Source: a virus. Taken from it: 25,756 bases of DNA. This document shows, in pieces, positions 1,623 to 24,396 of the stretch. The first letter of the stretch is position 1; each line of letters opens with the position of its first letter. The stretch spans positions 1 to 25,756 of the IMG/VR virus record IMGVR_UViG_3300042887_004507. One strand, given 5' to 3'. The translations under genes and the position numbers were made by a program. The notes under the pieces are model-generated. The model searched no databases and was not told the origin of the DNA. It worked only from the letters and a program-made list of their open reading frames with translations.

Positions 1623-1987
1623 TAAATACATAATAATAAAAAGGACACACAATGGCATTAGCTGATAAAAATATAGTCATTACACCAAATATAAGCGCAG
1701 CAAGCGACCCTAAGATTGTATTTTCTGGGGCAGATTTAAGTACTACAGCTCAGAATATTACGTTAACTGCATACCCAACTTTAAATGGTATGCTTAGTTT
1801 TGATGGTTCAAATGGACAATTACTTTCCGTTACTAATAGTTTAACTGGAACTATATTTGCAGCAAATGACGTATCTGGTATCCCAAGTATAGAAGTTCTT
1901 GATACTGGTTTAGTAAAACTAGCACAATATGGCGGTAACGTATTAATTGGTACTGGTACAGATGACGGAATTAACAAGTTACAAGTA
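1616..1987 (+). repeat. Direct repeat copy A: promoter plus fibre N-terminus
   Basis: Aligns without gaps to 15549-15920 (constant offset 13,933). The 372 bp hold the AATAAATA element, RBS, start codon and the first 112 codons of a fibre. Only scattered substitutions separate the copies. Similarity stops abruptly after the LQV codons of both genes, as expected for an exchangeable fibre-attachment cassette or a substrate for homologous recombination. Confidence 0.92.
1621..1628 (+). promoter_or_regulatory. Late-promoter-like element AATAAATA before giant fibre
   Basis: AATAAATA differs from the T4 late consensus TATAAATA at the first base only and ends 23 nt before the ATG at 1652. An AAAAAGGA Shine-Dalgarno stretch lies between them. 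The same element with the same spacing precedes the second fibre (15554), is found 22 nt before the glycosyltransferase (8355), and occurs as GATAAATA 24 nt before gp14 (minus strand). The constant spacing is the main support, because such 8-mers are common in AT-rich DNA. Confidence 0.55.
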
Positions 1988-4900: not shown

Positions 4901-7774
4901 AATACCGGTGGTAAAAATAACTTTGCTAGTGGATATTTTGCACTTTGGAACAATACCACTGGTTCTAATAATTTTGCTCAAGGATATAACGCACTTTATA
5001 GTAATACCACTGGTTATAATAACTTTGCTCAAGGATATTGCGCACTTTATTCCAATACTACTGGTAGTAATAACACTGCTATTGGAACCGCTGCACTTCG
5101 TTATAATACCGCTGGTAGTAATAATGTTTCTCAAGGATATCTAGCACTTTATTGCAATTCTACTGGTTCTAATAACTTTGCAGTTGGACTTTGTACATCT
5201 TATTGCAATTCTACTGGTTCTAATAACATTGCTCAAGGAGCTTACGCACTTCGTAATAATACCACTGGTAACAATAACATTGCAGTTGGGTGTTGTGCGT
5301 TATATAGCGTAAATGCTACTGGAAATAACATCGCAATTGGGGCTAACGCTGGTCAATCGTTGACTACTGGGGTTAATAATACCATTATTGGTCAATTATC
5401 TGGTACCGCTGGTCTAAGTGATACAGTACTAATTGGTGCTGGTACAACAGAACGAATCAAAGTTGATGCTACTGGGTTATCAATTAACGGCACTGCATTT
5501 AGTGGTGGTGGCAGTACTACATTAGATGCAAATGGCAACTTAAAAATTGGAACTGGGGCACTTGTTGCTAATACCACCGGTGCTAATAACTTTGCTGTTG
5601 GATGTAGAACACTTTGTAGCAATACCATTGGTAATAATAACGTTGCTCAAGGATATTGGGCACTTGCTCTTAATACCACTGGTAATAATAACGTTGCTGT
5701 TGGATATCGAGCACTTATGGCCAATACCTCCGGTAATCATAACACCGCTTTTGGATGTGCAGCACTTTGTGGAAATACCACTGGTAGTCATAACTTTGCT
5801 AGTGGAACTTATGCACTTTTTGCCAATACTAATGGTTGTCATAACTTTGCTCAAGGATATCAAGCACTTCGCTACAATACCACTGGTTGTAATAACTTTG
5901 CTAGTGGATATACTGCACTTTGTGGCAATACCACTGGTTGTCATAACTTTGCTCAAGGATATCAGGCACTTCGTGGCAATACCACTGGTTGTAATAACAC
6001 TGCAATTGGAAATCAAACACTTTGTGCCAATACCACCGGTAAACATAACTTTGCTCAAGGATATTACGCACTTAAATCTAATACTACTGGTAATAATAAC
6101 TTTGCTAGTGGATATTTTGCACTTAATGCCAATACCACTGGTAATAATAACTTTGCTCAAGGATATCAAGCACTTGCTTCTAATACTACTGGTATTAATA
6201 ACATTGTAATTGGAAATCAAGCACTTTATAATAATACCACTGGTAGTTATAACTTTGCCAGTGGTTTTCAAACACTTCGTTTAAATACTACAGGTAGTCA
6301 TAACTTTGCTGTTGGAGCTTGCGCACTGTATGCCAATACCACTGGTAATAATAACTTTGCTCAAGGATATTGGGCACTTAAAGCAAATACCACTGGTTGT
6401 AATAACTTTGCTCAAGGATATCTAGCACTTAAATCCAATACTACTGGTTGTAATAACGTTGCTCACGGATATTACGCACTTGCTGCAAATACCACTGGTT
6501 CTAATAACACTGCGATTGGATATAACGCACTTTATTCCAATACCAATGGTAAGCATAACTTTGCTCAAGGATACAACGCACTTTATAATAATACCACTGG
6601 TTGGAATAACTTTGCTCAAGGATATTACGCACTTTATTCCAATACTACTGGTAATAATAACATTGCAGTTGGGTGTTGTGCGTTATACAACTCAAACGCT
6701 ACTGGTAATAACATTGCAATTGGGGCTGATGCTGGTAAGTCGTTAACTACTGGGGTTAATAATACTATTATTGGGCAATTAACAGCTAGTGCTGGTCTAA
6801 GTAATACAGTACTGATCGGTGCTGGTACAACAGAACGAATCAAAGTTGATTCTACTGGGTTATCGATTAATGGTGTTGCGGTTGGTAGTGCAACAAATTT
6901 TGGATTTAAAAATAGACTCATTAATGGTCAATTTAACATAAGCCAACGTGGTATTGCTGCACAAACTATAACTGCAGGAGTAACTGTACCAACAGTATCA
7001 ACTGGCTATCAATTAGATAGATGGTTTGGTTATAGTACTGGTGCTAATGTGACAATACAACCTGTTGTTGTTAGCGGTATAATTTCAGGTCAGGTAACTG
7101 GAGCAGCTAGTGTATTAACTGTCGGTATAGGGCAAAGAATTGAATCACTGAATTCACAAGACCTTGCTGGTAAGAATGTTACATTATCATTTTGGGCTAG
7201 TAATTCATTATTAACTACAATGAATGTTGCTATTTCTTATGCAACCACATCGGATACATTTGGAACAATCGGTACACCAACTAAAACATTGATTACAAAT
7301 ACAAATTTTGCAATAACAGCTACCTTGACCTCATATTCAATGACATTTTTAATGCCAAGTGCAGCATTAACTGGTGTAGAAATATTATTTACTGTTGGAG
7401 CGCAAACAAGTGGCACATGGAACATTGGACAAGCTCAATTTGAGCAGGGTAGTGCTGCAACCACTTTTGATTATAGACCTATTGGCGCAGAAATGTTGTT
7501 TTGTCAACGATACCTAGAAGTAATAGCAACAAATCTATTTAGATGGTCTGGTTATAACCCAACAGCAGCTTCTGCAAATAATTATGGAACTATACCAATG
7601 CAAGCAATTAAGCGAATAACGCCAACAACTGTAATGTCATTTGCTGCAAATAATGTAAGTGCTGTGAGTTTAGTGAGTAATCCCACTTCTCTAGCTTTTA
7701 CTGCAACAAATACAGCAGTTGGTTTTTGGCTTTTTTATAATTCAGCTGCTGCAACAATAAATGCGGAGCTTTAA
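1652..7774 (+). CDS. Giant repeat tail fibre/adhesin (about 80 x 17-residue repeats)
   Basis: 2040 residues. Residues 1-162 form an N-terminal attachment region (MALADKNIVITPNIS...) that is nearly identical to the start of the fibre at 15585. Residues 163 to about 1745 are three blocks beginning at residues 163, 794 and 1289. Each opens with TTLDAN.NLKIGTG, runs through tandem copies of NTTGxNNFAxGYxALxx, and closes with a cap (IAIGA.AG.SLTTGVNN, then LIGAGTTERIKVD, then GLSING). The N-x-A-x-G pattern resembles YadA/Hep_Hag trimeric beta-roll heads (TMF-type repeats), so a long trimeric shaft is likely. Residues from about 1749 (FKNRLINGQFNISQRG...LDRWF...FEQG...FDYRP...CQRY) match a common phage-fibre C-terminal carbohydrate-binding domain. 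No peptidase S74 chaperone domain follows. A good RBS (AAAAAGGA) supports the start. Inferred role: host receptor binding. Confidence 0.85.
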   Translation: MALADKNIVITPNISAASDPKIVFSGADLSTTAQNITLTAYPTLNGMLSFDGSNGQLLSVTNSLTGTIFAANDVSGIPSIEVLDTGLVKLAQYGGNVLIGTGTDDGINKLQVASVKISSSLVLPNTTTLPTSPVTGNLRYNTTSDKFEGYSLAGWGAIGGGGTTLDANNNLKIGTGALGANTTGANNFAVGTSALGANTTGVNNFAVGTSALAANTTGKNNFAQGYCALKSNTTGCNNFAVGNYALFSNTGINNYAQGYKALYSNTTGINNFASGFCTLYSNTTGVDNIAIGKQSLASNTTGWSNFAQGYRALYSNTTGFNNFAQGGCALYFNSTGCHNTAIGYKALGANTTGQSNFAQGYKALGANTTGSNNFAQGYNALASNTTGNNNFASGYQALFYNTTGCNNIASGYCALFANTTGNNNFAVGNAALLNNTTGSNNFAQGYLALYSNTTGKNNIAIGYYALRNNTTGSNNTAFGCNALYSNTTGNHNFASGACTLFVNTTGCNNFAQGYNALYSNTTGKNNFASGACTLNANTTGCNNFAQGYCALRNNTTGNNNFAIGYNALCGNTTGCNNFASGYQALFFNTTGNNNIAQGYCALRNNTTGCHNFASGYFALCANTTGNNNTAIGNQTLYANTTGNSNFAQGYWALCGNTTGCNNVAHGYYALRNNTTGCNNSAQGYKALVSNSTGCNNFAQGYKALFSNTTGNNNIAVGCCALYSANATGNNIAIGADAGKSLTTGVNNTIIGQLTGTAGLSGTVLIGAGTTERIKVDATGLSINGVAFSGGGGGTTLDANGNLKIGTGSLAVNTTGTNNFAVGCRTLCSNTIGNNNVAQGYWALALNTTGNNNVAVGYRALMANTSGSHNTAFGCAALCGNTTGNQNFASGTYALFANTTGCNNFAQGYQTLRYNTTGCNNFASGYQALCGNTTGCHNFAQGYQALRGNTTGCNNTAIGYFALASNTTGKHNFAGGYFALCGNTTGNSNFAQGYCALVSNTTGCYNIAIGYNALFSNTSGCNNTAFGVRSLYFNTTGNYNYAQGYQALYKNTTGTNNFAQGYNALNANTTGNNNFAHGYVALCKNTGGKNNFASGYFALWNNTTGSNNFAQGYNALYSNTTGYNNFAQGYCALYSNTTGSNNTAIGTAALRYNTAGSNNVSQGYLALYCNSTGSNNFAVGLCTSYCNSTGSNNIAQGAYALRNNTTGNNNIAVGCCALYSVNATGNNIAIGANAGQSLTTGVNNTIIGQLSGTAGLSDTVLIGAGTTERIKVDATGLSINGTAFSGGGSTTLDANGNLKIGTGALVANTTGANNFAVGCRTLCSNTIGNNNVAQGYWALALNTTGNNNVAVGYRALMANTSGNHNTAFGCAALCGNTTGSHNFASGTYALFANTNGCHNFAQGYQALRYNTTGCNNFASGYTALCGNTTGCHNFAQGYQALRGNTTGCNNTAIGNQTLCANTTGKHNFAQGYYALKSNTTGNNNFASGYFALNANTTGNNNFAQGYQALASNTTGINNIVIGNQALYNNTTGSYNFASGFQTLRLNTTGSHNFAVGACALYANTTGNNNFAQGYWALKANTTGCNNFAQGYLALKSNTTGCNNVAHGYYALAANTTGSNNTAIGYNALYSNTNGKHNFAQGYNALYNNTTGWNNFAQGYYALYSNTTGNNNIAVGCCALYNSNATGNNIAIGADAGKSLTTGVNNTIIGQLTASAGLSNTVLIGAGTTERIKVDSTGLSINGVAVGSATNFGFKNRLINGQFNISQRGIAAQTITAGVTVPTVSTGYQLDRWFGYSTGANVTIQPVVVSGIISGQVTGAASVLTVGIGQRIESLNSQDLAGKNVTLSFWASNSLLTTMNVAISYATTSDTFGTIGTPTKTLITNTNFAITATLTSYSMTFLMPSAALTGVEILFTVGAQTSGTWNIGQAQFEQGSAATTFDYRPIGAEMLFCQRYLEVIATNLFRWSGYNPTAASANNYGTIPMQAIKRITPTTVMSFAANNVSAVSLVSNPTSLAFTATNTAVGFWLFYNSAAATINAEL
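2138..4030 (+). repeat. Fibre repeat block 1 (about 33 units of 51 bp plus cap)
   Basis: Codons 163-793 of the giant fibre. After the TTLDANNNLKIGTGAL lead-in I count about 33 tandem 17-residue (51-bp) units, one of them a residue short (NTGINNYAQG...). The cap (about 3784-4030) ends in a Gly-rich linker. Positions 1-4, 6-7, 9, 11 and 15 of the unit are nearly fixed (N-T-T-G, N-N, A, G, L). Positions 5, 10, 13, 16 and 17 vary. Confidence 0.9.
4031..5515 (+). repeat. Fibre repeat block 2 (about 25 units plus cap)
   Basis: Codons 794-1288 of the giant fibre, with the same lead-in, 17-residue units and cap architecture as block 1. The first 495 bp (4031-4525) align without gaps to 5516-6010 in block 3, so these two blocks share a recent duplication or gene conversion. 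The later units differ in order and identity between the blocks. Confidence 0.9.
5516..6888 (+). repeat. Fibre repeat block 3 (about 23 units plus cap)
   Basis: Codons 1289 to about 1746 of the giant fibre. The opening nine units match block 2 in order and almost base for base. The following units are a different assortment. The cap ends at GLSINGVAVGSATN and runs directly into the C-terminal binding domain rather than a Gly-rich linker. Confidence 0.9.
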
Positions 7775-7824: not shown

Positions 7825-8094
7825 ATGTATAAAACAATAATCAATTCGTTGTCAATATTACGAGTAGCTGATAACGCATTTATACCTGCGTCAGCTTCAA
7901 ATTTAGATTACATGCAATATATAGCATGGTTAGAAGAAGGGAATATTCCGGAGATGTCAACCGGAATAGCATGTGAAGAAATGTTAGCTGACACAATACT
8001 AGACCCTCCTGAGCATATTATGATCTATATACCTCAACCTAATAATGACCCTGTTGATTTTAGTAATACAACGTCGTTAAATTTAACTAACTAG
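7825..8094 (+). CDS. Small fibre-associated protein
   Basis: 89 residues. The core LRVADNAFIPASASNLDYMQYIAWLEEGN resembles a short module (ADNAFIP...N.DY..YLAWL.EGN.P) that is common just downstream of, or within, phage tail-fibre genes. Its exact function is not established; fibre assembly or capping is possible. The start is supported by a GGAG motif at 7809-7812 upstream of the ATG at 7825. The C-terminus (DFSNTTSLNLTN) looks ragged and the gene is followed by decayed coding sequence, so its 3' end may have been rebuilt by recombination. It has no membrane segment or signal peptide. Confidence 0.6.
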   Translation: MYKTIINSLSILRVADNAFIPASASNLDYMQYIAWLEEGNIPEMSTGIACEEMLADTILDPPEHIMIYIPQPNNDPVDFSNTTSLNLTN

Positions 8095-8315
8095 TAATAA
8101 TGCCAGCACATTTACTAATAATTTAATTGAATTAGATAATTCAAAATTTATAGTAAGTTAATACGAATAATCCAGGCAAACTATTACCAGTTGCAATTAA
8201 AGCTATTCAAGAATTATCTAAAAAACTTCAAGTGTTAACTAATCAAAATATCGAACTTCAAGTAGAAAAACAAAAAAATTGGTTAAAAATTAAGGCATAC
8301 TGCTTATTAAGTTAA
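8095..8315 (+). pseudogene. Relic of a tail-fibre C-terminus (S74-like terminal helix)
   Basis: No intact gene with a start codon is present. The frame open from 8157 to the TAA at 8313 reads NNPGKLLPVAIKAIQELSKK and continues with a Gln/Lys/Asn-rich helix to WLKIKAYCLLS. 'IKAIQELS.K...L' is the usual ending of fibre proteins carrying an intramolecular chaperone (peptidase S74). A short open stretch in another frame (about 8095-8158) may be further debris. I infer the leftover 3' end of a replaced fibre gene. Confidence 0.55.
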
Positions 8316-8332
8316 GTAGTATGCCTGTTTCT
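8294..8332 (+). terminator. Rho-independent-type terminator of fibre block
   Basis: A 13-bp stem is formed by GGCATACTGCTTA (8294-8306) and TAAGTAGTATGCC (8313-8325), with one G.U pair and a TTAAGT loop. It is followed by the T-rich TGTTTCTTC. It separates the fibre transcription unit from the glycan block, whose own promoter-like elements begin at 8355. Confidence 0.72.
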
Positions 8333-8354
8333 TCTGCACTACATCATTTCATTT

Positions 8355-8376
8355 AATAAATATGATAAAATAAATA
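8355..8376 (+). promoter_or_regulatory. Tandem late-promoter-like elements before glycan block
   Basis: Two AATAAATA octamers lie at 8355-8362 and 8369-8376. The first ends 22 nt before the ATG at 8385, matching the spacing seen before both fibres and gp14. They follow directly after the terminator, where an operon promoter is expected. No clear Shine-Dalgarno separates them from the start codon. Confidence 0.5.
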
Positions 8377-8384
8377 TTACTTAA

Positions 8385-9293
8385 ATGGCTATTATGAAAC
8401 CACTTGGCGGAACTGAAATTCTGTATAACAACTTATTAAAATACACAGATTTAAATTGGCAACAAAATGTTAACTTAATTCCAAGTTTTTGTAACCACTC
8501 AAACTTAGACCCAACTAGAAAAAATATAGTTTGGCAACATTTAATGACCGACCAACTAGCTACAGTTGGCATGAATGATGTTACATTTACTAATGCAGTT
8601 GACCAGTTTATATATGTTAGTAACTGGCAATTTAAACAATTTCAAGAATTATATCAACTTGATCATTTAAACAACATTGTAATAAAAAACGCAATAGACC
8701 CAATAGACTACATTCAAAAACCAACTGATAAACTTAGATTAATTTACACATCAATGCCATTTCGTGGACTTGATATATTACTAGATGCATTTAACCTAAT
8801 TAATAACCCTGATATTGAATTAGTAGTTTATTCATCTAATGTAATATATGGCACACAATATAGCAATAGTGTTGGTAACATGTATGACCATTTATTTAAT
8901 AGATGCAAATCTATGAAGAATGTTGTATATAAAGGGTATGCTATGAATAAAGCAATAAGAAAAGCATTGCAAACTTCCCATATATTAGCATATCCAAGTA
9001 CTTTTAAGGAAACTAGTTGTTTAGCTGCAATTGAAGCAGGTGCAGCTGGATGCAAAATTGTTACAACTAATTTAGGTGCATTACCGGAAACTTGTGATAA
9101 ATGGGCTACTTATGTAAATTATACTGAAAATAGAAATGAATTAGTAGAAAATTATGCAGAAACTTTAAAAAAGGAGATTGACAACTATACTAATACCAGT
9201 TATAATATACAAAGTAAATGGTTTAATGATAGTTATTCGTGGTTAAATCGTAAAGCTGAATGGGATACATTACTAAATGATAATCAAGTATGA
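8385..9293 (+). CDS. Glycosyltransferase, GT4/Glycos_transf_1-like
   Basis: 302 residues. It begins almost immediately with the GGTE motif (residues 8-11) that normally follows the first strand of GT-B enzymes, so the N-terminal lobe is short. The C-terminal lobe has the family's E-x7-E nucleotide-sugar signature at E209/E217 (KETSCLAAIEAGAAG), preceded by AYPSTF and followed by VTTNLGALPE. The expected reaction is transfer of a sugar from a nucleotide-sugar donor to a glycan in the cytoplasm. An in-frame stop directly before 8385 fixes the earliest start; ATG 8394 (MKPLGG) is an alternative, and neither has a clear RBS. It is the first gene of a coupled series and overlaps the next by 17 nt. 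Donor and acceptor are unknown. Confidence 0.8.
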   Translation: MAIMKPLGGTEILYNNLLKYTDLNWQQNVNLIPSFCNHSNLDPTRKNIVWQHLMTDQLATVGMNDVTFTNAVDQFIYVSNWQFKQFQELYQLDHLNNIVIKNAIDPIDYIQKPTDKLRLIYTSMPFRGLDILLDAFNLINNPDIELVVYSSNVIYGTQYSNSVGNMYDHLFNRCKSMKNVVYKGYAMNKAIRKALQTSHILAYPSTFKETSCLAAIEAGAAGCKIVTTNLGALPETCDKWATYVNYTENRNELVENYAETLKKEIDNYTNTSYNIQSKWFNDSYSWLNRKAEWDTLLNDNQV

Positions 9294-9927
9294 TACAGTT
9301 GAAAATAGTAGAGTTTATATCTCTGAAAAAATTAAAGCTGAAAAAATCAAAAATTCTAACTATACTGTAATAGACATTGGTGGAGTTACTAATGTGTGGA
9401 CGTTAGATATAATTGATTTATTAGTTGATATTAACACCACTGATACCCTTAACAGTTTATCAGTTGATATATGCTCAACAGAATCTCTCGTCAAGTTACA
9501 GACCTATGTTGAAGAACATGGTATGTTTGATTACGCAATATGCACACATACTCTTGAAGATATATTCAATCCAATTGATATATTAAAAATATTACCAACT
9601 ATAGCAAAACGCGGTGTTATTTCTATGCCAAGTGCTAATACTGAGTTTTCAAGATGTGAAAACCCTCATTGGTTAGGATATATTCATCATAGGTGGATTT
9701 TTGATCAGACTGGCACAACAATGTTGATTATTCCTAAAATAAGTGTATTAGAAGCATTATGCAGCAACCGGTTTTCATATAAAAAAGCTCAAGAAGAAAT
9801 CCGATATGAATGGGAAACATCAATTCCATACACCTTATTTATGGATAATTATTTAGGCCCATCTGCAGCTGCAGTAATTAATCATTATACAGCATTAATT
9901 GAAACAATTTATAATAGAAAAATATGA
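9277..9927 (+). CDS. Methyltransferase-like protein (class I SAM fold)
   Basis: 216 residues. Features of a small Rossmann-type SAM methyltransferase are visible. These are a glycine-rich first strand (YTVIDIGGVTNVW, about residues 30-42), an acidic second-strand end (LSVDIC), and the motif FDYAICTHTLEDIFNP. The last resembles the 'hDhhhxxxxLeHh' strand-helix of Methyltransf_11 enzymes. A late strand (KRGVISMPS) follows. The first loop lacks the usual GxGxG, so SAM binding is plausible but unproven. The distal half (NPHWLGYIHHRWIF...) is not recognised. It overlaps both neighbours (17 nt upstream, ATGA downstream), which fits translation as part of the glycan operon. Substrate unknown. Confidence 0.55.
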   Translation: MIIKYDTVENSRVYISEKIKAEKIKNSNYTVIDIGGVTNVWTLDIIDLLVDINTTDTLNSLSVDICSTESLVKLQTYVEEHGMFDYAICTHTLEDIFNPIDILKILPTIAKRGVISMPSANTEFSRCENPHWLGYIHHRWIFDQTGTTMLIIPKISVLEALCSNRFSYKKAQEEIRYEWETSIPYTLFMDNYLGPSAAAVINHYTALIETIYNRKI

Positions 9928-10604
9928 CAACAAAAGTAATGATAGGAACACCGTGTTACGATGGTAGGCTTGATGTTTGGTATACTAATAGCTTAATGAA
10001 TACCATTAAAGAAAGCGTTGAGCATGACGTTGAAATAATACCAATTTGGGTTAGCTTTGACGCGTTGCTACAACGAGCTAGAAACGATACAGTTCATCTA
10101 GCTATAGAAACAGATGTAGATTATTTAATATTTATTGATTCCGACATTGAATGGCAACCTTCTGATTTTTTTAAATTACTTAACTACCCAGAAGACATCG
10201 TCGGAGGAACTTATCGAAAAAAAGGCGATATTGAGGAATATGTAGTTAGATTACTAAAAGATAGTCCTCCAATGTCATCAACCTCAAACTTATTAGAAGT
10301 ATCTGGATTAGGAACAGGATTTTTGAAAATAAGTAAAGCAGCACTGCAATATTTATGGGATATTAGTGAACCATACATTGATACAAAAGATAACGCAGAA
10401 CATCGGATGATTTTTGATGTAGCAATTAAAAATCATAGCTTTCACAGCGAAGACATTGTTATGTGCGACAAACTCCGTAATGGCGGGTTTAAATTATGGT
10501 TAGATACTAGTATTACATGTAATCATATTGGACCATACAAATTCACAGGCAATTACGCCGTGTGGAATAATACCCCCCAACCACTTATTAAAAAACAATT
10601 ATGA
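9924..10604 (+). CDS. Glycosyltransferase, GT-A fold
   Basis: 226 residues. MIGTPCYDGRLDVWY at the N-terminus and a DxD metal/nucleotide-sugar motif (D72-S73-D74 in LIFIDSDIEW) mark a GT-A glycosyltransferase. The following VGGTYRKKG and the later GLGTGFLKISKAAL with a SEDIVMCDKL stretch resemble the Mnn9/Anp1-like or GT2-like enzymes often found in large phages. The expected role is addition of one sugar with a divalent-cation-dependent mechanism. Start and stop overlap the flanking genes through ATGA motifs (9924-9927, 10601-10604). Linkage and acceptor cannot be deduced. Confidence 0.78.
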   Translation: MTTKVMIGTPCYDGRLDVWYTNSLMNTIKESVEHDVEIIPIWVSFDALLQRARNDTVHLAIETDVDYLIFIDSDIEWQPSDFFKLLNYPEDIVGGTYRKKGDIEEYVVRLLKDSPPMSSTSNLLEVSGLGTGFLKISKAALQYLWDISEPYIDTKDNAEHRMIFDVAIKNHSFHSEDIVMCDKLRNGGFKLWLDTSITCNHIGPYKFTGNYAVWNNTPQPLIKKQL

Positions 10605-11401
10605 ATAAACAATTTGTTATGTTATCCGGATTACCTCGATCTGGGTCTACAGTTTTAGGATCTATGCTTAATCAACATCCGTTGATACACTCTTCTACAA
10701 CATCACCTGTTATTGATATGATTGAAGTATTAAACAATACCTGGCCTGCAATATCAGGAGCATTAACAAACACCTCTGAACATCAATATACAAATATGAT
10801 TAGAGGAGTCTGTGAAGGTGCGTATGAACATATTCAAAAACCAATAATTATTGATAAAAATCGCTTATGGCCTAGACACGGCAAACTAATGACGGCGGTT
10901 TTAGAACATAAACCTAAAATCATATGCACAGTGCGTAGTATTCCTGAAATATTAGCATCATACATTACATTGATTAACAAAAATCCAAATAAAATTACCT
11001 TTATTGATCAAGATTTGATAGACAATAAACTAGTAGTTAACAATAAAAATAGATGTAAATTACTATGGGAGAAATATATCAATGGACCTTATAATAGTGT
11101 AAGAATTGGGATTAATTCTCCCAATGTTGATTTATTAGTAGTAACATACGCTGATATAGTTGAGGATAGTCAAAATACAATGAACAAAATTTGTAACTTC
11201 ATTGGTATTGATTCGGTTAATATTGATCTGCAGAATATGCAACAAATGAATGAAAATGATATGTATCATGGCGGAATTACTGGATTGCATGATGTAAGGC
11301 CAATAATGCAGCGTGTTAGTTTACCACCCGAAATGATCATTGGCAACGAATTAACAGAACTGTATACTAATATGAAATTAGATTTTTGGAATAAACGATG
11401 A
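10601..11401 (+). CDS. Sulfotransferase (PAPS-dependent)
   Basis: 266 residues. The N-terminus carries the 5'-phosphosulfate-binding loop LSGLPRSGSTVLGSML (residues 8-23, R13-S14-G15-S16-T17). The second PAPS-binding element with the conserved Arg/Ser appears at residues 109-120 (CTVRSIPEILAS). IIIDKNRLWPRHG fits the substrate-side strand of the Sulfotransfer_1/3 families. The likely reaction is transfer of sulfate from PAPS to a hydroxyl or amine, most plausibly on a sugar given the neighbours. An APS kinase encoded 3.6 kb downstream on the same strand would make the donor. The gene is ATGA-coupled on both sides. Family assignment is firm; the substrate is inferred. Confidence 0.85.
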   Translation: MNKQFVMLSGLPRSGSTVLGSMLNQHPLIHSSTTSPVIDMIEVLNNTWPAISGALTNTSEHQYTNMIRGVCEGAYEHIQKPIIIDKNRLWPRHGKLMTAVLEHKPKIICTVRSIPEILASYITLINKNPNKITFIDQDLIDNKLVVNNKNRCKLLWEKYINGPYNSVRIGINSPNVDLLVVTYADIVEDSQNTMNKICNFIGIDSVNIDLQNMQQMNENDMYHGGITGLHDVRPIMQRVSLPPEMIIGNELTELYTNMKLDFWNKR

Positions 11402-12042
11402 TAATAGAATCATTTAGAAATCGTTTTATTCAAATGAAAAACAATGGTAATAATGTTCAATATGTTTTAGATATTGGAGCATATCGAGGTGATTTTACTG
11501 AAACTGTAAAATCAGTATGGCCAACTGCTATTGTTCGTCAATTTGAAGCCGACGAAAGACAAAAATCTTGGTTACAGGACAATGCTATTATAGCGTTACT
11601 TGGTGATCAAAATAATCAATCTGTTAACTATTATACATTACCTGATGATAAAATTACAACCGGTAGTTCGATCTTTAAGGAACAAACTATACATTATGCA
11701 TCACCTATTGTCATACAAAAAGAAATGAGAACGTTAGATAGTTTACATACTACTTACAATTTCTTTGGAGATTGGAAAAATCTTGGTTTAATAAAGTTAG
11801 ATACCCAAGGGTCTGAGTTATTAATACTAGAAGGTGCTCGCCAATTTTTACATAACAAACAACCACGGTATATTTTAATTGAATGTTCGTGGCAACAATA
11901 TAATCAAGGTTCACCACTTTTAGCAGAAGTAGTCGCACAACTTGATAAATTAGAGTATAAAGCAACTGACATTTTTGATACATCATACGATTTGCATAAT
12001 AATTTACTTCAAACTGATATTTTATTTGAAAGGAAACAATAA
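11398..12042 (+). CDS. FkbM-family methyltransferase
   Basis: 214 residues. The SAM-binding first motif is VLDIGAYRGDFTE (residues 23-35), the second-strand acidic motif is FEAD (49-52), and the family hallmark IKLDTQGSELLILEGA spans residues 132-147. This is a complete, normal-length FkbM domain. Such enzymes O-methylate sugars or other small hydroxyl-bearing molecules. In phages they often sit beside glycosyltransferases. It starts within the ATGA overlap of the sulfotransferase. Its TAA is followed immediately by the next ATG (zero spacing), with an AAAGGA RBS for that gene inside its last codons. Confidence 0.87.
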   Translation: MIIESFRNRFIQMKNNGNNVQYVLDIGAYRGDFTETVKSVWPTAIVRQFEADERQKSWLQDNAIIALLGDQNNQSVNYYTLPDDKITTGSSIFKEQTIHYASPIVIQKEMRTLDSLHTTYNFFGDWKNLGLIKLDTQGSELLILEGARQFLHNKQPRYILIECSWQQYNQGSPLLAEVVAQLDKLEYKATDIFDTSYDLHNNLLQTDILFERKQ

Positions 12043-12978
12043 ATGAAAAAAATATTTTTTATAGATGGCGGCGCAGGTCGAATAATTGCAGCAATTCCTG
12101 CACTGTTGAAATACAATCGATTAAACCCTAATACAGAATGGTCAATATTAGTTAGTATTTGGGATTTTTTGTTTTGGGGTATTCCTGAACTACAAGATCG
12201 AGCCTACAACTTAGATACTAAAGGGGTATTTGATAATGTAGTAAAACATGCTGACATTATAGTAACTCCAGAACCCTATCGAAATCCTGCATATTTCCGA
12301 CAAGAAATATCGTTAGTGCAAGCATTTGATAGAGAAATTAACGGAGTTACTGACCACAGTGATTTAGGTGCTCCTACACTAGTGTTTAATAAACAAGAAA
12401 CTGCAGTTGCAGTGAAAACGATTAATAATATTAAAGCTTCACAAAAGAAACAAAAAACGATTATTTTTCAACCATTTGGACGAGGTGCAAACATTGACCC
12501 CGACTCTAACCAAATTATTGATGAAGAATCGAGAAGTTTAAGTTCAACCGATTATGTTAAGTTGACTAAAAAGTTAGGAATGAAATATAATTTAATTTTC
12601 TTTGGTGAGCCCGATTTTCAGTTAAAAGAGGACACTATTTCGGCAAAATTCACATGTGAGTTGCGCCAATGGGGTGCTTTGATTAAAGCTGCTAATTATT
12701 TTATTGGCTGCGATAGCAGCGGTCAACATATAGCTAGAGCAGTCAGTACTCCTGGTACAGTTATTTTTGGATCTACATTTCCAATTAATACTTCTTACCC
12801 TGATTACTTTAACATAATTGAAAAAGCAGGTGCTAAGAAATATAGCCCAATTAGAATTACTGGATTGGATGTATCATTAGCAAACCGATTAAACGAAAAT
12901 TCTATGAACTTTACTGATAAAGAATTAAATGATATGTATCTAGCAATTGTTGCAGATATTGAGAAAAAGGTGAAATAA
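12043..12978 (+). CDS. Glycosyltransferase family 9-like (heptosyltransferase-like)
   Basis: 311 residues. The opening FFIDGGAGRIIAAIPALL matches the N-terminal strand and glycine loop of ADP-heptose:LPS heptosyltransferases. The C-terminal lobe has IIFQPFGRG and then FIGCDSSGQHIARAVSTPGT (about residues 220-239), corresponding to the GT9 'hIg.DtG..HlA.A...P' signature. S225/S226 replace the usual Thr. It probably adds a sugar to a host-derived or phage-built glycan. RBS AAAGGAAACA precedes the ATG. The stop and the next start overlap as TAATG (1 nt). The donor need not be ADP-heptose. Confidence 0.72.
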   Translation: MKKIFFIDGGAGRIIAAIPALLKYNRLNPNTEWSILVSIWDFLFWGIPELQDRAYNLDTKGVFDNVVKHADIIVTPEPYRNPAYFRQEISLVQAFDREINGVTDHSDLGAPTLVFNKQETAVAVKTINNIKASQKKQKTIIFQPFGRGANIDPDSNQIIDEESRSLSSTDYVKLTKKLGMKYNLIFFGEPDFQLKEDTISAKFTCELRQWGALIKAANYFIGCDSSGQHIARAVSTPGTVIFGSTFPINTSYPDYFNIIEKAGAKKYSPIRITGLDVSLANRLNENSMNFTDKELNDMYLAIVADIEKKVK

Positions 12979-14675
12979 TGGCATATAGTATTTTAGCAAT
13001 CAATCCAGGACATAACGGTTCTGCCGCATTAACAGTAGATGGCGAAGTTGTATATTACACAGAAGAAGAACGACTTACTAGATTTAAGCACGATGGTAAT
13101 CCATTTAGAGCAATGCTGCAAGTGTTATCAGTACACCCGATAGATGAATTAGTCATTGGCGGCACTTCCGAAGAATTTTCTACATTACCTTGGACAGGCG
13201 AAGATGCCTATTCGGCATTAGCAAGAAAATTCTATCCAAATATTAAAATAACAAAAATGGGTAACTTACATCACTTAGGACACGCAGCTGGTGCATTTTA
13301 TAATTCTGGATTTGAAACTGCTGCTGCTGTAATTATTGATGGAGCAGGGTCAAATCATAGCGACCAAATTGGCGAAAATGGGCCAATTGTAAATGGGTTT
13401 GAAACTGAAACTATCTATCATTGTTCATATCCAGGTGAATTTAATGCAGTATACAAACACTATTCTAACGGCATTCATGATAGCATGTACTACGATAACG
13501 GAATACAAGAATTTGATAATTCAGTAACGATAACTAAAGCATATGAAGCAGTATCGGAATATCTTGGTTTTGGTTTTATCGAAGCTGGTAAAACAATGGG
13601 GTTAGCACCGTACGGTAAATTTGATGAGTTTATTCCGGATTTTTTTATTAATGGTAAAGGTAATCGTAATTTATTGATTCCTCGCTATCCAGCCGGTGCG
13701 GTTATTGATGAAACATTAAACCCATACCTAAAACGGTACGTTGATCCGCAAGATTGGCATAATGATTTTACATTATGCACAGACCAATCTAAAAACTTAG
13801 CATTTAAAGTTCAACAAGAAGTTGAAGAACTACTGTTTAAGTTAGTAGAAAAAGCAGTTGATATTACCGGTGAAACTGATGTTGTTATTTCAGGCGGATT
13901 TGGGTTAAACTGTGTAGCTAACTATAAGTTAGTTAAACGATTTCCACAACTTAACATCTATGTTGACCCAATTGCTCACGACGGCGGAACTGCTATTGGC
14001 TTAGCTAGATACGCATGGTTTAAACATAGCGGAGACACTACTATTAAACCATTAAAGACAGTATGTTTAGGAGTATTGCCTGATTATAATCAGTTAGAAA
14101 ATGTAAAATTGCAACTTCCTGACTTAGTGTTTTCTGATACTTCTGCAGATCATATTGCTAAACTATTAGAGTCCGGTGAAATTGTTGCTATATTTCAAGG
14201 CCCGTCAGAAGGAGGACCAAGAGCATTAGGCAATAGAAGTATTGTGTTTGACCCGCGTAATCCGGATGGCAAAGAAATTATTAACTCAGTTAAAAATCGT
14301 GAATGGTTTAGACCATTTGCTGGTTCAGTAATGGAAGAACACGCAAGTGATTGGTTTGATATGGACAAGTTAGATAATTCGCCATTTATGATGTATGCAG
14401 TTAATGTATTACCTGAAAAAATCTCACAACTCCCTGCTATTACTCATGTAGACAATACGTGTCGTGTTCAAACCGTTAATGCAGATAATACACATTACTA
14501 TGAACTTATTTCAGAATTTAATAAGTTAACTGGTGTTCCGGTATTGTTTAATACAAGTTTTAACTTAGCTGGACAGCCATTAGTTGAAACTATCATAGAC
14601 GCAGTATTAACATTGATAAATAGTGATATTAAATATCTGTATTTGCCCGAAATTGGACAACTAATCAGTAAATAA
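12978..14675 (+). CDS. Carbamoyltransferase, NodU/TobZ family
   Basis: 565 residues, full length for the family. The N-terminal Kae1-like domain starts ILAINPGHNGSAAL, with metal-binding histidines in LHHLGHAAGAF (H98, H99, H102). VIIDGAGS, GKTMGLAPYGKF and VISGGFGLNCVANYK follow. The C-terminal Carbam_trans_C domain has EGGPRALGNRSI (residues 411-422), WFRPFAG and FNTSFNLAGQPLVE (524-537). The family transfers a carbamoyl group from carbamoyl phosphate, through carbamoyl-AMP, to a sugar hydroxyl (NodU on Nod factors, TobZ on tobramycin). Its position last in the overlapping glycan series suggests a sugar acceptor. All expected motifs are intact, so it is probably active. Confidence 0.92.
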   Translation: MAYSILAINPGHNGSAALTVDGEVVYYTEEERLTRFKHDGNPFRAMLQVLSVHPIDELVIGGTSEEFSTLPWTGEDAYSALARKFYPNIKITKMGNLHHLGHAAGAFYNSGFETAAAVIIDGAGSNHSDQIGENGPIVNGFETETIYHCSYPGEFNAVYKHYSNGIHDSMYYDNGIQEFDNSVTITKAYEAVSEYLGFGFIEAGKTMGLAPYGKFDEFIPDFFINGKGNRNLLIPRYPAGAVIDETLNPYLKRYVDPQDWHNDFTLCTDQSKNLAFKVQQEVEELLFKLVEKAVDITGETDVVISGGFGLNCVANYKLVKRFPQLNIYVDPIAHDGGTAIGLARYAWFKHSGDTTIKPLKTVCLGVLPDYNQLENVKLQLPDLVFSDTSADHIAKLLESGEIVAIFQGPSEGGPRALGNRSIVFDPRNPDGKEIINSVKNREWFRPFAGSVMEEHASDWFDMDKLDNSPFMMYAVNVLPEKISQLPAITHVDNTCRVQTVNADNTHYYELISEFNKLTGVPVLFNTSFNLAGQPLVETIIDAVLTLINSDIKYLYLPEIGQLISK

Positions 14676-14677
14676 GA

Positions 14678-14685
14678 TATAAGTA
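14678..14685 (+). promoter_or_regulatory. Possible late-promoter-like TATAAGTA
   Basis: TATAAGTA is one base from TATAAATA and lies in the only real gap of the glycan block, 33 nt before the ATG at 14719. The spacing is longer than the 22-24 nt seen elsewhere, so this is a weak candidate for a separate promoter for the small protein and APS kinase. Confidence 0.25.
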
Positions 14686-14718
14686 AATCTAAAAACATTT
14701 TAAGAAAAAGGAAATATT

Positions 14719-15030
14719 ATGACAGAAATTATCGAAATTCAACCAATTGAAGGTGAAATTGTAATCACCGAACGACGTGCAACTAGTGAATATTTCATCA
14801 CTGACATTCACGAGTCTATTACTAATAAATTTGTGCGTGTAGAAGTAGAATTAGGACCTTTTGAGGTAACTGAGCAGCCAAATGGTGAAACTACCACTCG
14901 TGGTTCATCTCGTAGAGGGTTAGTAGTATGGCAAAATGAAGATTATGTTGACATTATGAACACCTGGGACAATGCTATGTTATTAGCAAAAGTTTCTGAA
15001 TTGCTAGCGGCTGAAGCAACTCCGGTATAA
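14719..15030 (+). CDS. Small acidic protein of unknown function
   Basis: 103 residues. I do not recognise the family. Visible features are a Glu/Ile-rich N-terminus, alternating beta-type strands (YFITDIHES, FVRVEVELGPF), a charged Thr/Ser/Arg hinge (residues about 60-67), and a C-terminal helical part with WDNAMLLAKVSELL. There is no signal peptide or membrane segment. A strong AAAAAGGAAA RBS precedes the ATG. It lies between the carbamoyltransferase and the APS kinase on the same strand, so it may belong to the glycan block, but the larger gap upstream also allows an independent role. Confidence 0.7.
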   Translation: MTEIIEIQPIEGEIVITERRATSEYFITDIHESITNKFVRVEVELGPFEVTEQPNGETTTRGSSRRGLVVWQNEDYVDIMNTWDNAMLLAKVSELLAAEATPV

Positions 15031-15051
15031 CATTTTAATCTTTGGTTGTTA

Positions 15052-15507
15052 ATGAAAATATTAATTATGGGATTACCCGGATCTGGAAAAACAACACTAG
15101 CAAATGAACTAGTTAAACTTTTAGATTCAGTTGAATGGTTTAACGCAGATGATATACGAACACAGTATAATGATTGGGATTTTAGTAAAGAAGGACGAAT
15201 ACGACAAAGTAATAGGATGAAATACTTGGCAGAAAACTCATCCGCAACCTATGTTATATGTGATTTTGTAGCACCAACTAAAGAAATTAGAAAGTTGTTT
15301 AATGCAGATGTTACTGTATTTGTTGACACTATAGATAACAGCAAGTATAGTGATACTAATTCTGTATTTGAAAAACCTAGTAAATATGATATTAGAGTAG
15401 ACAGTAAACATAGTGTTTACTGGTCTACACAAATTATTAAATATTTACAAACTATTAATAATATTAATAACAGTTTGAATCAAAAGAAATCCATGTGTAT
15501 CTTGTAA
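15052..15507 (+). CDS. cysC: Adenylylsulfate (APS) kinase-like protein
   Basis: 151 residues from ATG 15052 (a TTG six bases upstream is the alternative; neither has a clear RBS). The Walker A loop is MGLPGSGKTTLA (G7 to K13-T14-T15). FNADDIR (30-36), DWDFS..GR (41-49), the ICDFVAP strand (69-75), FVDTI and the late DTNSVFEKP are all characteristic of APS kinases. The reaction is APS + ATP to PAPS + ADP, supplying the donor for the sulfotransferase at 10601. It is shorter than cellular CysC (about 200 residues). The last ten or so residues (LNQKKSMCIL) are not native: they are translated from antisense Nudix-relic DNA. The C-terminus was therefore rebuilt by recombination, and whether activity survives is open. 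Confidence 0.75.
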   Translation: MKILIMGLPGSGKTTLANELVKLLDSVEWFNADDIRTQYNDWDFSKEGRIRQSNRMKYLAENSSATYVICDFVAPTKEIRKLFNADVTVFVDTIDNSKYSDTNSVFEKPSKYDIRVDSKHSVYWSTQIIKYLQTINNINNSLNQKKSMCIL

Positions 15508-15548: not shown

Positions 15549-15920
15549 TATTTAATAAATACATAATAATAAGAAGGACACACAATGGCATTAGCTGATA
15601 AAAATATAGTCATTACACCAAATATAAGTTTAGCAAGCGACCCTAAGATTGTATTTTCTGGGGCAGACGCAATTACTGCAGCTCAGAATATTACGTTAAC
15701 TGCATACCCAACTTTAAATGGTATGCTTAGTTTTGATGGATCTGCTGGACAATTACTTTCCGTTACTAATAGTTTAACTGGAACTATATTTGCAGCTAAC
15801 GATGTATCTGGTATCCCAAGTATAGAAGTTCTTGATACCGGTTTGGTAAAACTAGCACAATATGGCGGTAACGTATTAATTGGTACTGGTACAGATGATG
15901 GATTATCTAAATTACAAGTA
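15549..15920 (+). repeat. Direct repeat copy B: promoter plus fibre N-terminus
   Basis: Gap-free partner of 1616-1987. It begins where the Nudix relic ends and stops after codon 112 of the second fibre. It carries its own AATAAATA element, RBS (AAGAAGGA) and start codon. Confidence 0.92.
15554..15561 (+). promoter_or_regulatory. Late-promoter-like element before second fibre
   Basis: AATAAATA ends 23 nt before the ATG at 15585. The spacing and flanks are identical to the element before the giant fibre because both lie in the duplicated segment. It probably also serves the adhesin at 16585, which follows after one base. Confidence 0.5.
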
Positions 15921-16583
15921 AGTGGTGGTATTAAAGCAACTAGCATTGGTATTACAAATATTAGTCCAACTACGGGGTTAGGCATATCGTTATATAATGG
16001 ACCGGCAACAGGGTCAATGGCAACTTTTGGTTTATCGTTTTCTGGCACTGGGACATATGGTACACACGGCGCAGTAACTGGTGATTGGGTAACATATTTT
16101 ACAGTAGATAATACTGCAAATAGAGGATGGATATTTAAAAATACCAATATCGGTATTGGCGGCAATGTTGCATCAATCTCTAATGCTGGAACTATTAGTA
16201 CAACAACTACAATGTATGTCGATTCTGCTAGTTCAAATTTAGAAGTTGGTTATAAAATTGTACCGCAAGTTAGCAAATCTGTAGATTATCCAACTGTATT
16301 AACTGATTCAGGAAAACATATTTTTCATCCAGCTGCCGACACTACTAGTAGAACGTATACAATTGACAATGCCGTTGCATACCCTATTGGAACTGTACTA
16401 ACATTTATTAATGAAGGCGGTGCAGGAGTAATTTCTATTACAATTTCAGGTGCAAGTGCGTTGTTAGCATTAGTAGGAACCGGTGCTACTACTGTTCCAA
16501 AGTCTCTAGCTGCAAACGGTATGGCTACTGCAATAAAAATTACATCAACCAAGTGGCTAATTTCGGGATCGGGGTTAACATAA
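15585..16583 (+). CDS. Short tail fibre sharing the giant fibre's N-terminus
   Basis: 332 residues. The first 112 are nearly identical to the 2040-residue fibre and presumably dock to the same baseplate or fibre site. A middle beta-rich region (SIGITNISPTTGLGISLYNG, then AVTGDWVTYFTVD, then NIGIGGNVASISNAGTIS) leads to a C-terminal knob-like segment. That segment (SGKHIFHP, YTIDNAVAYPIGTVLTFINE, then GVISITISGA and KWLISGSG) is a widespread phage fibre C-terminal pattern. There is no 17-residue repeat shaft and no S74 domain. The start is fixed by the RBS and by conservation between the two copies. It is followed after 1 nt by the FN3 adhesin, so the two are co-translated. Confidence 0.82.
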   Translation: MALADKNIVITPNISLASDPKIVFSGADAITAAQNITLTAYPTLNGMLSFDGSAGQLLSVTNSLTGTIFAANDVSGIPSIEVLDTGLVKLAQYGGNVLIGTGTDDGLSKLQVSGGIKATSIGITNISPTTGLGISLYNGPATGSMATFGLSFSGTGTYGTHGAVTGDWVTYFTVDNTANRGWIFKNTNIGIGGNVASISNAGTISTTTTMYVDSASSNLEVGYKIVPQVSKSVDYPTVLTDSGKHIFHPAADTTSRTYTIDNAVAYPIGTVLTFINEGGAGVISITISGASALLALVGTGATTVPKSLAANGMATAIKITSTKWLISGSGLT

Positions 16584-16584
16584 C

Positions 16585-19500
16585 ATGAGTGGAATTTTAA
16601 ATGTATTATTGGCTAGCAGTAATAGTGCATCACCGCCAGCTGCTCCATCCGGCATTAGTGGTGCTACATATACCTCTGGTTCTGTAACTTTTAATTATAC
16701 AGCCGGATCTAATGGCGGATCACCGATCACTAATTATCGAGCAGTATCCGGAGGTACTAATTATGCTGTAACATATACGGCATCAGTGATAACAGTTAGT
16801 GGTTTAACTAACGGAACTACCTATAATTTTTATTTACAAGCATTTAACTCATCAGGATGGGGTACGCTTAGTTCAACTAGTACTGGATCGATAACACCGT
16901 ATGCCGGAACATTAACTGCACCGTCTATAACAAGTTGGACTTCAAATACAACTAACACTACATTTAACTGGGGAACGGTTACTTTTGCAACTTCTTATCA
17001 GATTGATTTTCAAAATGCCGGAACGTTTGCCCTTAATACTGCTAGTTTAACAACTAACTATGCGTCAACTGCAGCATCAGTAGTTATTAAAATTTACGCA
17101 ATTGCTACAGGATGGATTAATTCGTCAACAACTACATATACTGCAACATATACTACTCCAGGGTCTCCGACTGGTGTAGCTGCTGCACTAGTTGCAACAT
17201 CGGGCACCTTATCTGTGTCGTTTACTCCGTCACCTATTATTGGTGGCGGGTCAACTACAACTAGTGGATTAATAAAACAATATAATGTATACGTTAATGG
17301 AGGGTTAACTGTATCTTATACCGGTTCGTCTAATCCTATATCTTGCGGTAGTTTAACAGTTGGTACTAGTTATACATTTCAAATAACTCAAGTTAACTAT
17401 GCAAATTTAGAAAGTGCAAAAAGTACTGCATCAAGTAGTGTAGCAGCACCCGGCGTTCCCGCTGCACCAACAATTGGTACAGCTACTGCAACTGGTACTC
17501 AAACTGCAACGTTGGCATTTACTGCTAATACAACAAACGGGTATCCAATTACATCATATCAAGCATTTACATCAGGCGGTACTTCGGTTAATATTGCATC
17601 AAGTACAGCATCTTTGTTATCATTAAATGGATTAACACAAGGCAATTCGTATCAATTTTATATGAAAGTAGTTAATGCAATTGGAACTAGCGCACAAAGT
17701 GGAACTAGTACACCGGCTATAACTACATGGACTACGCCAAGTGCTCCTACAATGGGTACTGTAACTGTATCAGGAACTACTATTACTATCCCATGGACTG
17801 CTCCTTCAAGTACCGGTGGCACTCCGATTGATTATTATTACTTATACACCGGTGCAACATTAATTTCATCTACGATTGCATCATCGGCAGTATCATATTC
17901 GTATACTGGTGTTAAAAATACCGCGTATACGTTTACAATTTATGCACATAATTCAGTTGGATTAAGTACTGTTAGTGCTACTAGTAATTCAGTAACTGCA
18001 ACTGGTGTACCGAATGCACCGTCGCTAACTAGTGCAACTTTTTCAGGAACTACAGTATATGCGTATTTTTCTGCGCCATTAAATACCGGCGGACTTCCTA
18101 TTGACGTATATCGAATAGATAACAATGGATCACCGTTAACTACTACACAAACTACATCGCCTTATACATTTACCGGTGCATATGGAACTACATACACGCT
18201 TACTGTGTATGCACACAATTCTGCAGGATGGAGTACTGTAAGTAACAGCGGATCCACAAAACCATATACTACCCCAGGTACTGCATCGAGTTTGTCATTT
18301 GCACAAACTGGTTTAAATACTGGAAACTTAACATTTACTAATCCGGCTAATAATGGCGAAGCAATTGATTACTACCATGTTTATATTGGCGGATCATATA
18401 ATCAAACAGTTAATGGTGCTGGATCTCCGCTTGCATTAACCAGCATATCTAACGGCAGTATTATTACAATTTATGCACATAATGCAGCAGGATTTGGAGG
18501 AGTTAGTACATCTACAACTGCATCAATGGTTGCAATACCTAGTACGCTTACGATATCATCGTCAAGTGTTACGTCATCAGGCGCTACAATTAGCTTTACG
18601 CAAACTGGTGGAGCTCCGACTAGCTGGATAATATGGAACTATCCAACATACAACTCGTATACTGGCGGTTCTCAATTATATAATGGTCCATCTGTACCGT
18701 CAGTTGCATTGTCGTTGTCATCTAGTACTACATATAACTTAGCTGCATACGGGTTAAACGTAGCAGGGCAGTCAACTAACTGGTCAACTATGATTCAAGT
18801 AATAACACCGGCAGCATCTTCAATACCGGGTGCTCCGACTATTACTAGCGGTGGGATAGGTAATGCTACTGGATACATATATTTTAATGCAGGATCGTCT
18901 GGAAATCTAACAATTACTGCATATCAAGCATATGATTCAAACTCGGCAACTTATTTTAATGCAACTGGTACTACAAGTCCAGTATCTGTTAGTTTATCAA
19001 ACGGCACAACTTACAGAATGTATTTGCGAGCATTTAACTCATTAGGATGGGGACCGTTAAGTTCAGGGTACGTTGATATTACTCCATATGCAGGTACATT
19101 AACAGCGCCTGCTATATCTAGTTGGACGTCTAATGCAACGTCTATATATTGGACATGGCCTGCAGTAACTAGTGCAACGTCATACCAAATGGATTTTCAA
19201 AATGCCGGTACATTTGCAACTAATACCGTTAGTCCACCATCCCCAGGGTTTGGCCCAATTGCACAAAATGCAGTGTTTAAAGTATATGCAAAAGCAGCTG
19301 GATGGTTAAATTCAAGTGTATCAACATCAACTGCAACGTTTACTACGCCTGGTGCTCCAACAGTTGGAACATTAACAGTTGACGGGACTGCTACGGTAAC
19401 ATTACCTGTTACTCCGTCTGCAAATATAGGAGGTGGCTCATCTACAGCTGCGGGTGTAATAAAACAATATAATATATACATGAACGGTAGTGCATCGCTT

Positions 19501-21013: not shown

Positions 21014-21463
21014 TTATAAACTATCAATTATATCAATTAATGTTTGAATCTTAGTTTGAATAATTTTATTACGCAAACTAAGATTTAGTCCACGATGAAT
21101 AGGTTTAGGTAAAACATTTAAATCAAACCATCCCCAAGCAATGTGTTCATCACTTAACGTTGGTACAAATTCGTTCTCGACTAAACAAAAGTATGTGTGA
21201 AAATTAAAGACACTATCGTTAGATACAAACTTTTCTAACGGTAGTGTTTTTTTAATGTCTGGAAGAAATCCTATTTCTTCCTCTATCTCGCGGGTAAGAC
21301 CCTGCCATGGGTTTTCGTTAGCAAGGTTAGTACCGCCAACTAATCCCCAAGATCCTTGATGTTTACCTGAGGATTTTTGAATCAAAAGAAATCTATGTGT
21401 AGCTTGTGAGTAAATTAATGCACCACTGCAAATTATTTGATCTTTTATATTTCCAATCGCCAT
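21014..21463 (-). CDS. Nudix hydrolase
   Basis: 149 residues with a perfect Nudix box at residues 44-66 (G-x5-E-x7-REIEEEIGF), so the metal-binding glutamates and REUxEE core are present. The surrounding fold is typical: a first strand ICSGALIY, FLLIQKS, and SWGLVGG before the box. The late IAWGWFDLNVLP strand is typical of the nucleotide-sugar and mannosyl-hydrolase-like groups, but the substrate cannot be called. The start overlaps the end of the gp15 gene by 19 nt, so it is co-transcribed with the neck/tail-completion genes. A decayed fragment of a second copy lies at 15478-15548. Confidence 0.9.
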   Translation of the reverse strand: MAIGNIKDQIICSGALIYSQATHRFLLIQKSSGKHQGSWGLVGGTNLANENPWQGLTREIEEEIGFLPDIKKTLPLEKFVSNDSVFNFHTYFCLVENEFVPTLSDEHIAWGWFDLNVLPKPIHRGLNLSLRNKIIQTKIQTLIDIIDSL

Positions 21464-24388: not shown

Positions 24389-24396
24389 TATTTATC
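24389..24396 (-). promoter_or_regulatory. Late-promoter-like GATAAATA before gp14
   Basis: Minus-strand GATAAATA lies 24 nt before the TTG start, the same spacing as the AATAAATA elements before the fibre and glycan genes. It overlaps the stop codon of the homing endonuclease (24392-24394), so that gene fits exactly up to the gp14 promoter. Confidence 0.5.

Follow-up and report, generated by a model that had tools for sequence, protein, structure and literature searches.

The 25.8-kb viral contig IMGVR_UViG_3300042887_004507 (25,756 nucleotides, analysed whole and called the window below) carries, among its tail-fibre genes, a chain of seven genes predicted to serve the assembly, methylation, carbamoylation and sulfation of a glycan, with a gene for an adenosine 5'-phosphosulfate (APS) kinase-like protein downstream. 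We favour, at about even confidence, the reading that this cassette serves to decorate the virion late in infection, the fibres being the likeliest target, with a phage-boosted supply of the sulfate donor 3'-phosphoadenosine 5'-phosphosulfate (PAPS). The basis for this reading lies in the sequence: the gene identities, their conserved order, the way in which kinase and sulfotransferase occur together in two lineages, and a late-type promoter motif. Phage-borne genes for glycan or surface decoration are a known kind; what is new is a branch for sulfation, together with a probable source of the sulfate donor. The source is a large T4-related phage of the myovirus type, and its cassette comprises the following genes.

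8385..9293, + strand: GT4 glycosyltransferase (PF00534 1.3e-11; phrog_2170 1e-35)
9277..9927, + strand: putative MetW-like methyltransferase, weak (PF07021 0.0033, under cut-off; conserved in L004-L006 and L113)
9924..10604, + strand: putative GT2/GT-A glycosyltransferase, weak (PF00535 0.0038, under cut-off)
10601..11401, + strand: sulfotransferase, Sulfotransfer_3 family (PF13469 1.5e-13; LPRSGST PAPS loop, invariant downstream R and S)
11398..12042, + strand: FkbM-type methyltransferase (PF05050 4.3e-14; TIGR01444 above cut-off)
12043..12978, + strand: GT9 heptosyltransferase-type glycosyltransferase (PF01075 5.9e-6)
12978..14675, + strand: NodU/TobZ-type O-carbamoyltransferase (PF16861 2.8e-58; phrog_1601 1.6e-155; TobZ 5e-55)
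14719..15030, + strand: 103-aa protein of unknown function (homologues in L004, L006, L115, L117 and L119)
15046..15507, + strand: APS-kinase-like P-loop kinase (PF01583 2.8e-9)

A preliminary description of this DNA, made from its letters, had the seven open reading frames (ORFs) from 8385 to 14675 linked by overlaps or zero gaps, and the successive gaps are indeed -17, -4, -4, -4, 0 and -1 nt. It also placed the APS kinase-like gene downstream on the same strand; this gene is not contiguous with the seven, since the conserved 103-aa ORF intervenes, 43 nt beyond the last of them and 15 nt short of the kinase ORF, and it probably starts at the ATG at 15052 rather than the TTG at 15046. Five of the seven genes have firm Pfam families (GT4, sulfotransferase, FkbM methyltransferase, GT9 and O-carbamoyltransferase), so that the sulfotransferase and NodU-type carbamoyltransferase were rightly named. 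For the three glycosyltransferases and two methyltransferase-type proteins originally counted, GT4, GT9 and FkbM stand, whereas the GT2-like and MetW-like assignments are weak; the former protein matches the glycosyltransferases among the PHROGs (2e-5) less well than it matches a family of unknown function (phrog_1574, 1.8e-23).

In the mechanism that we propose, the GT4 and GT9 enzymes, and probably the GT2-like protein too, would assemble a short glycan, with GT9 placing what is probably a heptose-type sugar. The carbamoyltransferase, the FkbM methyltransferase and the sulfotransferase would presumably then modify this glycan, and the small kinase would turn host-made APS into PAPS, so that sulfation would no longer rely on PAPS made by the host. 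As acceptor we consider a part of the virion most likely, in the first place the adjacent long repeat fibre, whose charge and recognition the decoration would alter.

Sequence and predicted fold agree that the kinase domain belongs with the APS kinases. It scores above the curated cut-off of APS_kinase PF01583 (37.6 versus 21.1 bits), and its P-loop, GLPGSGKT for GxxGxGKT, is (nearly) invariant. The APS-pocket positions, taken as D-x-x-R, F, R and F-[IV]-[SA]-P, are conserved as NADxxR, WDF, GR and FVAP in alignment with 2yvu and PAPSS1. The family profile has 31 matches in the PDB, mostly APS kinases and human PAPSS1 among them, and the top 12 matches to the predicted fold of a fused homologue are all APS kinases. 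APS is probably the substrate.

The link between kinase and sulfotransferase is closest in two lineages. Relatives of the window were sampled by a structural gene that is uninformative on either enzyme, and 45 whole records were searched with profiles for both. The kinase exceeds its cut-off in 10 of the 45 and the sulfotransferase in exactly those 10, leaving 35 with neither; the 10 represent about 5-6 different cassettes. On the structural-protein tree this joint pattern takes 5 changes; well-supported branches give 4 independent contrasts, and every one is concordant. In a second lineage, for which a neck protein served as the sampling gene, six loci have both genes, none has the sulfotransferase alone and 73 have neither; a seventh kinase locus is cut at a contig end, and its contig holds a sulfotransferase, making 7/7 kinase contigs. 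In gene-seeded searches, a sulfotransferase lies within about 10 kb of 36 of the 72 kinase clusters, and within 700 bp in 19 of those 36. Sulfotransferases of other kinase-bearing cassettes are only 26-31% identical to the window copy, implying that the kinase associates with different sulfotransferases.

The seven-gene cassette is more than a chance grouping, because other contigs have its genes in the same order. The order GT4-(MT1)-GT2-sulfotransferase-(FkbM or epimerase)-GT9-carbamoyltransferase is kept in relatives at 45-76% protein identity, and GT4-GT2-sulfotransferase-GT9-carbamoyltransferase stands beside fibres in about 13 contigs from several phage lineages, where the preliminary description had suggested looking for the gene set. 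These recurrent cassettes are often 3' of a fibre with NTTG-type repeats. In the window, the flanks of the cassette are as follows.

1652..7774, + strand: long tail-fibre gene, 2040 aa, with NTTGxNNFAxGYxAL-type repeats (64 NTTG motifs); upstream flank of the cassette
7825..8094, + strand: small post-fibre ORF of a phage family of unknown function (phrog_20370 2e-7), probably outside the cassette
8292..8338, + strand: hairpin followed by a T-rich stretch, terminator-like, between fibre unit and cassette (region z-score -2.6)
8354..8362, + strand: late-promoter-like motif TAATAAATA ahead of the cassette (same motif before two fibre genes, at 1620 and 15553)
15585..16583, + strand: second fibre gene
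16585..20946, + strand: third fibre/tail protein (from the ORF list)

Across the clade, a T4-late-promoter-like motif, [AT]ATAAATA, is found 16-36 bp ahead of sheath, tube, gp15 or fibre genes, and it also precedes genes of the cassette, namely those for GT4 in the window, for the sulfotransferase in L057 and for GT9 in L074. The canonical TATAAATA does not occur in the window; its variant TAATAAATA occurs four times against 2.35 expected, which is not above chance by count, but each of the three on the plus strand is closely followed by the start of a fibre gene or of the cassette. For the clade, 20 of 33 copies of TATAAATA are positioned ≤60 bp upstream of a gene start, compared with 0-3 for most permuted controls; an overlapping permutation, ATAAATAAT, gave 5 of 7 copies in the same test. 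Late expression alongside the fibres would favour decoration of the virion over early exclusion of competitors. The preliminary description had offered both fibres and host surface as targets; a glycan-decorating cassette beside fibres is supported, whereas the exclusion of competitors that it also suggested is less favoured in view of the late-promoter motifs. Fibre-type repeats are present in 8 of the 10 sulfotransferase-positive clade records and in none of the 35 negative ones, as well as in five other sulfotransferase-bearing records.

A number of observations weigh against late virion decoration with a dedicated PAPS supply. Many of the negative records in the structural-gene clade are fragments, and a regular-expression search within 10-kb flanks in the neck-protein sample did not reproduce the fibre-repeat link, which is therefore only suggestive. 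The 4-5 independent changes on the tree are too few for significance alone. The window has no genes for donor-sugar synthesis. In the kinase itself, much of the C-terminal APS-kinase lid, canonically a DPKGLYKKA-type segment, is absent and a shorter SKYxDTNxxF stretch is found instead, and the protein reaches 31.1 of the 138.7 bits set for the APS-kinase equivalog TIGR00455. In the wider family the kinase is often fused to, or adjoins, a nucleotidyltransferase resembling nicotinamide mononucleotide adenylyltransferase (NMNAT). Among kinase records with no sulfotransferase nearby, 31 of 33 show none above the cut-off over their whole length; conversely, 17 of 19 sulfotransferase records with no nearby kinase lack one record-wide, and 12 of them exceed 60 kb. 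The cassettes of L112, L116, L119 and L004/L006 include a sulfotransferase and no kinase in the sequence examined, and the cyanophages S-SRM01 and S-SKS1 carry sulfotransferases, while the kinase-seeded search returned no cyanophage. The co-conservation put forward in the preliminary description is thus partly supported: it is perfect in two lineages and stronger in close relatives than could then be known, but weaker in the wider view, where the genes are often apart, an outcome that in part matches what the same description had named as counting against the link.

Is the kinase then concerned with PAPS at all? It could instead be a nucleotide or NAD-related kinase, with the cassette drawing on host PAPS. 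The NMNAT-type C-terminal domain of many relatives, and neighbours in other phages that include NADAR, dihydrofolate reductase/thymidylate synthase or replication genes, speak for such a role, as do the 31 kinase records with no sulfotransferase. Set against this are the perfect co-occurrence in two lineages, the 19 close pairs among 36 sulfotransferase-positive kinase clusters, and the fact that APS kinases are the best profile and fold matches; we consider a kinase unrelated to PAPS to be somewhat doubtful. The simplest account of the mixed distribution may be that the sulfotransferase needs PAPS, which some hosts supply and others do not, while phages that lack a sulfotransferase put the kinase to another use unconnected with it.

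The fused proteins form a widespread phage family, phrog_10255, in which an APS-kinase-like domain is joined to an NMNAT-like nucleotidyltransferase of the HxGH type, in which YGRDVGY and ISATKIR motifs are conserved (L007:18359-19183; L170:5520-6362; L025:10001-10835; also L009 and L010). The domain order is that of animal PAPS synthetase. The NMNAT-like domain was considered as a derived ATP sulfurylase; its PDB profile matches are NMNATs, pantothenate synthetases and phosphopantetheine adenylyltransferases, with no ATP sulfurylase, and the idea is speculative only. A broader proposal, that phages sulfate their own fibres, directly or via a fibre-bound carbamoylated glycan, from a dedicated PAPS supply, and that this fusion may be a compact PAPS synthetase using an unrelated nucleotidyltransferase, we regard as doubtful.

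The sulfotransferase has the features of a PAPS-dependent enzyme: LPRSGST at residues 11-17 (5'-phosphosulfate loop PRxGxT/S), and R112 and S120 of the 3'-phosphate motif, which are invariant in 13 sequences. The closest PDB matches of its family profile are the protein-tyrosine sulfotransferases, which raises the possibility that it sulfates the fibre protein directly, on tyrosine or the like and independently of any glycan. The smallest cassette, in L057, would suit this, consisting of a sulfotransferase, a 176-aa protein and the kinase beside fibres, with no recognised glycosyltransferase between the fibres and the tail genes or in the sulfotransferase-kinase interval; in some phages the acceptor may therefore be a protein or a host-made glycan. 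In protein-tyrosine sulfotransferases, however, the catalytic Glu lies in a CGEETRV segment, and in the phage family this is replaced by an ASxxSP-type sequence. In the window lineage, moreover, the sulfotransferase is always accompanied by GT9 and the carbamoyltransferase. Direct sulfation of the fibre seems to us unlikely. The protein between sulfotransferase and kinase recurs at 173-176 aa (L042:10168-10698, L057:7605-8135, L060:14719-15240) and has no Pfam match in the copy tested, that of L057.

What sugar would be carbamoylated? The carbamoyltransferase has both its C- and N-terminal Pfam domains (2.8e-58 and 1.2e-23), each aligning with solved TobZ/GdmN-type structures, and it shows the O-carbamoyltransferase signatures HxxxH (HHLGHA) and GPRALGxRS (GPRALGNRS) in alignment with TobZ; it does not reach the NodU equivalog NF041651 (126.7 of 1000 bits). 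The GT9 protein passes its family profile (26.2 bits against a cut-off of 22), and the top Foldseek matches of its predicted fold are the GT9 enzymes WaaC, WaaF and TibC. The two genes are the tightest pair of the cassette, with GT9 directly upstream of 34 of 49 carbamoyltransferase genes, or 25 of 33 clusters. A marine single-cell virus and cyanophage S-CAM1 also have homologues of the two side by side; in S-CAM1 the pair neighbours heptose-synthesis genes and neck genes. This pairing, including that beside heptose-synthesis genes, suggests that the sugar is a carbamoylated heptose. In the lipopolysaccharide (LPS) core of Pseudomonas, the carbamoyl group on HepII is attributed to WapO (PMC8005017).

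The same observations supply a serious rival, if a rather doubtful one, in which the cassette alters the host envelope with a carbamoylated, sulfated heptose like that of an LPS core and so blocks re-adsorption of the same or other phages. The GT9 fold is nearest to LPS heptosyltransferases and TibC, the protein gives a weak RfaQ-type signal, and the WapO precedent and the S-CAM1 neighbourhood both fit. Against envelope modification stand the late-promoter motif, the position among fibre genes, and the tendency of an exchangeable cassette to remain beside fibres, partly those of a single repeat type. As a discriminator between LPS and protein heptosyltransferases the GT9 fold proved of no use, TibC and WaaC/WaaF scores showing no separation.

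A further alternative is that the carbamoyltransferase, perhaps with the glycosyltransferases, hypermodifies phage DNA, as does a 5-hydroxymethylcytosine carbamoyltransferase; a TobZ-type phage enzyme with such activity is described in PMC8670742. We hold this to be very improbable. Neither thymidylate synthase nor deoxycytidylate (dCMP) hydroxymethylase was found in the window, in six other large clade contigs or in two 372-kb relatives, which themselves carry no carbamoyltransferase; and, according to the same paper, carbamoyltransferases outside modified contigs are flanked by, for example, glycosyltransferases, as in the window. The TobZ residues W408, G421 and R423, there said to differ in DNA-modifying enzymes, align with I, G and R in the window and were set aside as a criterion.

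Carbamoyltransferase-GT9 cassettes that have no sulfotransferase are found near tail genes in L082:12675-19424 and L098:13297-19434. They include a tryptophan-halogenase homologue and 2-oxoglutarate-Fe(II) oxygenases (Pfam run on L082), suggesting other modifications of virion or glycan.

Among known systems, our best reading by analogy is that the closest chemistry combines the carbamoyl-heptose of the Pseudomonas LPS core with sulfation of the NodPQ/NodH or Rax type. The parallel drawn at the outset with Nod-factor decoration (NodH with NodPQ, NodU) is chemically fair, since a PAPS supply, a sulfotransferase and an O-carbamoyltransferase act there on a short glycan, but the cassette has no chitin synthase or acyl chain, the window has no ATP sulfurylase gene, and the carbamoyltransferase lies far under the NodU cut-off; for the GT9-carbamoyltransferase pair the Pseudomonas inner core, with heptosyltransferases and WapO acting on heptose, is closer. 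Even there, the phage version differs in being a two-gene pair beside fibres. The Rax system of Xanthomonas likewise backs a sulfotransferase, RaxST, with its own PAPS genes, RaxP and RaxQ (PMC4216712); RaxP, however, is an ATP sulfurylase, for which the window shows no gene, and RaxST acts on a secreted peptide. TobZ and GdmN are homologous across both domains but act on antibiotics. TibC shares the GT9 fold, and its repeat adhesin acceptor is analogous to a repeat fibre, although fold scores do not set it apart from WaaC/WaaF. The sulfotransferases of cyanophages and OM43 phages belong to the same family, but no kinase partner has been reported for them.

The function of phage sulfotransferases has been stated to remain unclear (PMC10580990), and our literature search returned nothing on such an enzyme with an APS kinase or a tail fibre. 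A mobile, late-type module of sulfotransferase and APS-kinase-like gene, kept with fibres, would give these enzymes a testable role in decorating the virion or host surface, and would help to explain the presence of an APS-kinase-like gene in some phages. If the proposal is correct, sulfate and carbamoyl groups would extend the range of chemistry by which phages may mask or adjust the structures that recognise their hosts.

Beyond the fibres, the window continues into a conserved tail region.

21014..21463, - strand: Nudix hydrolase, edge of the conserved tail region (phrog_1198 3.9e-20)
21445..22920, - strand: tail sheath stabiliser/completion protein, gp15-like (phrog_11196 6.9e-69)
22943..24364, - strand: virion structural protein, the neutral anchor for sampling relatives (phrog_11591 1.8e-83)

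The tail-completion gene resembles those of large myoviruses such as the PA5oct group and Sinorhizobium phage Phosso, and annotations of the PA5oct group place genes for sheath completion, a Nudix protein and structural proteins side by side, as in the window. The fibre genes on the two sides of the cassette are identical at 312 of their first 340 bases (92%) and also share the promoter-like upstream sequence, an arrangement in which the cassette could be exchanged by recombination; the matching ends, at 1615-1990 and 15548-15925, are possible handles for such a swap. The 103-aa protein, which has no family match, recurs alongside the cassette and has its own late-promoter-like motif in L006. 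An HNH homing endonuclease at 24392-25177 is 92% identical to its copy in L022, compared with 61-72% for the adjoining structural genes, indicating recent mobility. The Nudix gene is similarly close to that of L022 (94%), whereas the gp15-like gene that overlaps it is only 61% identical.

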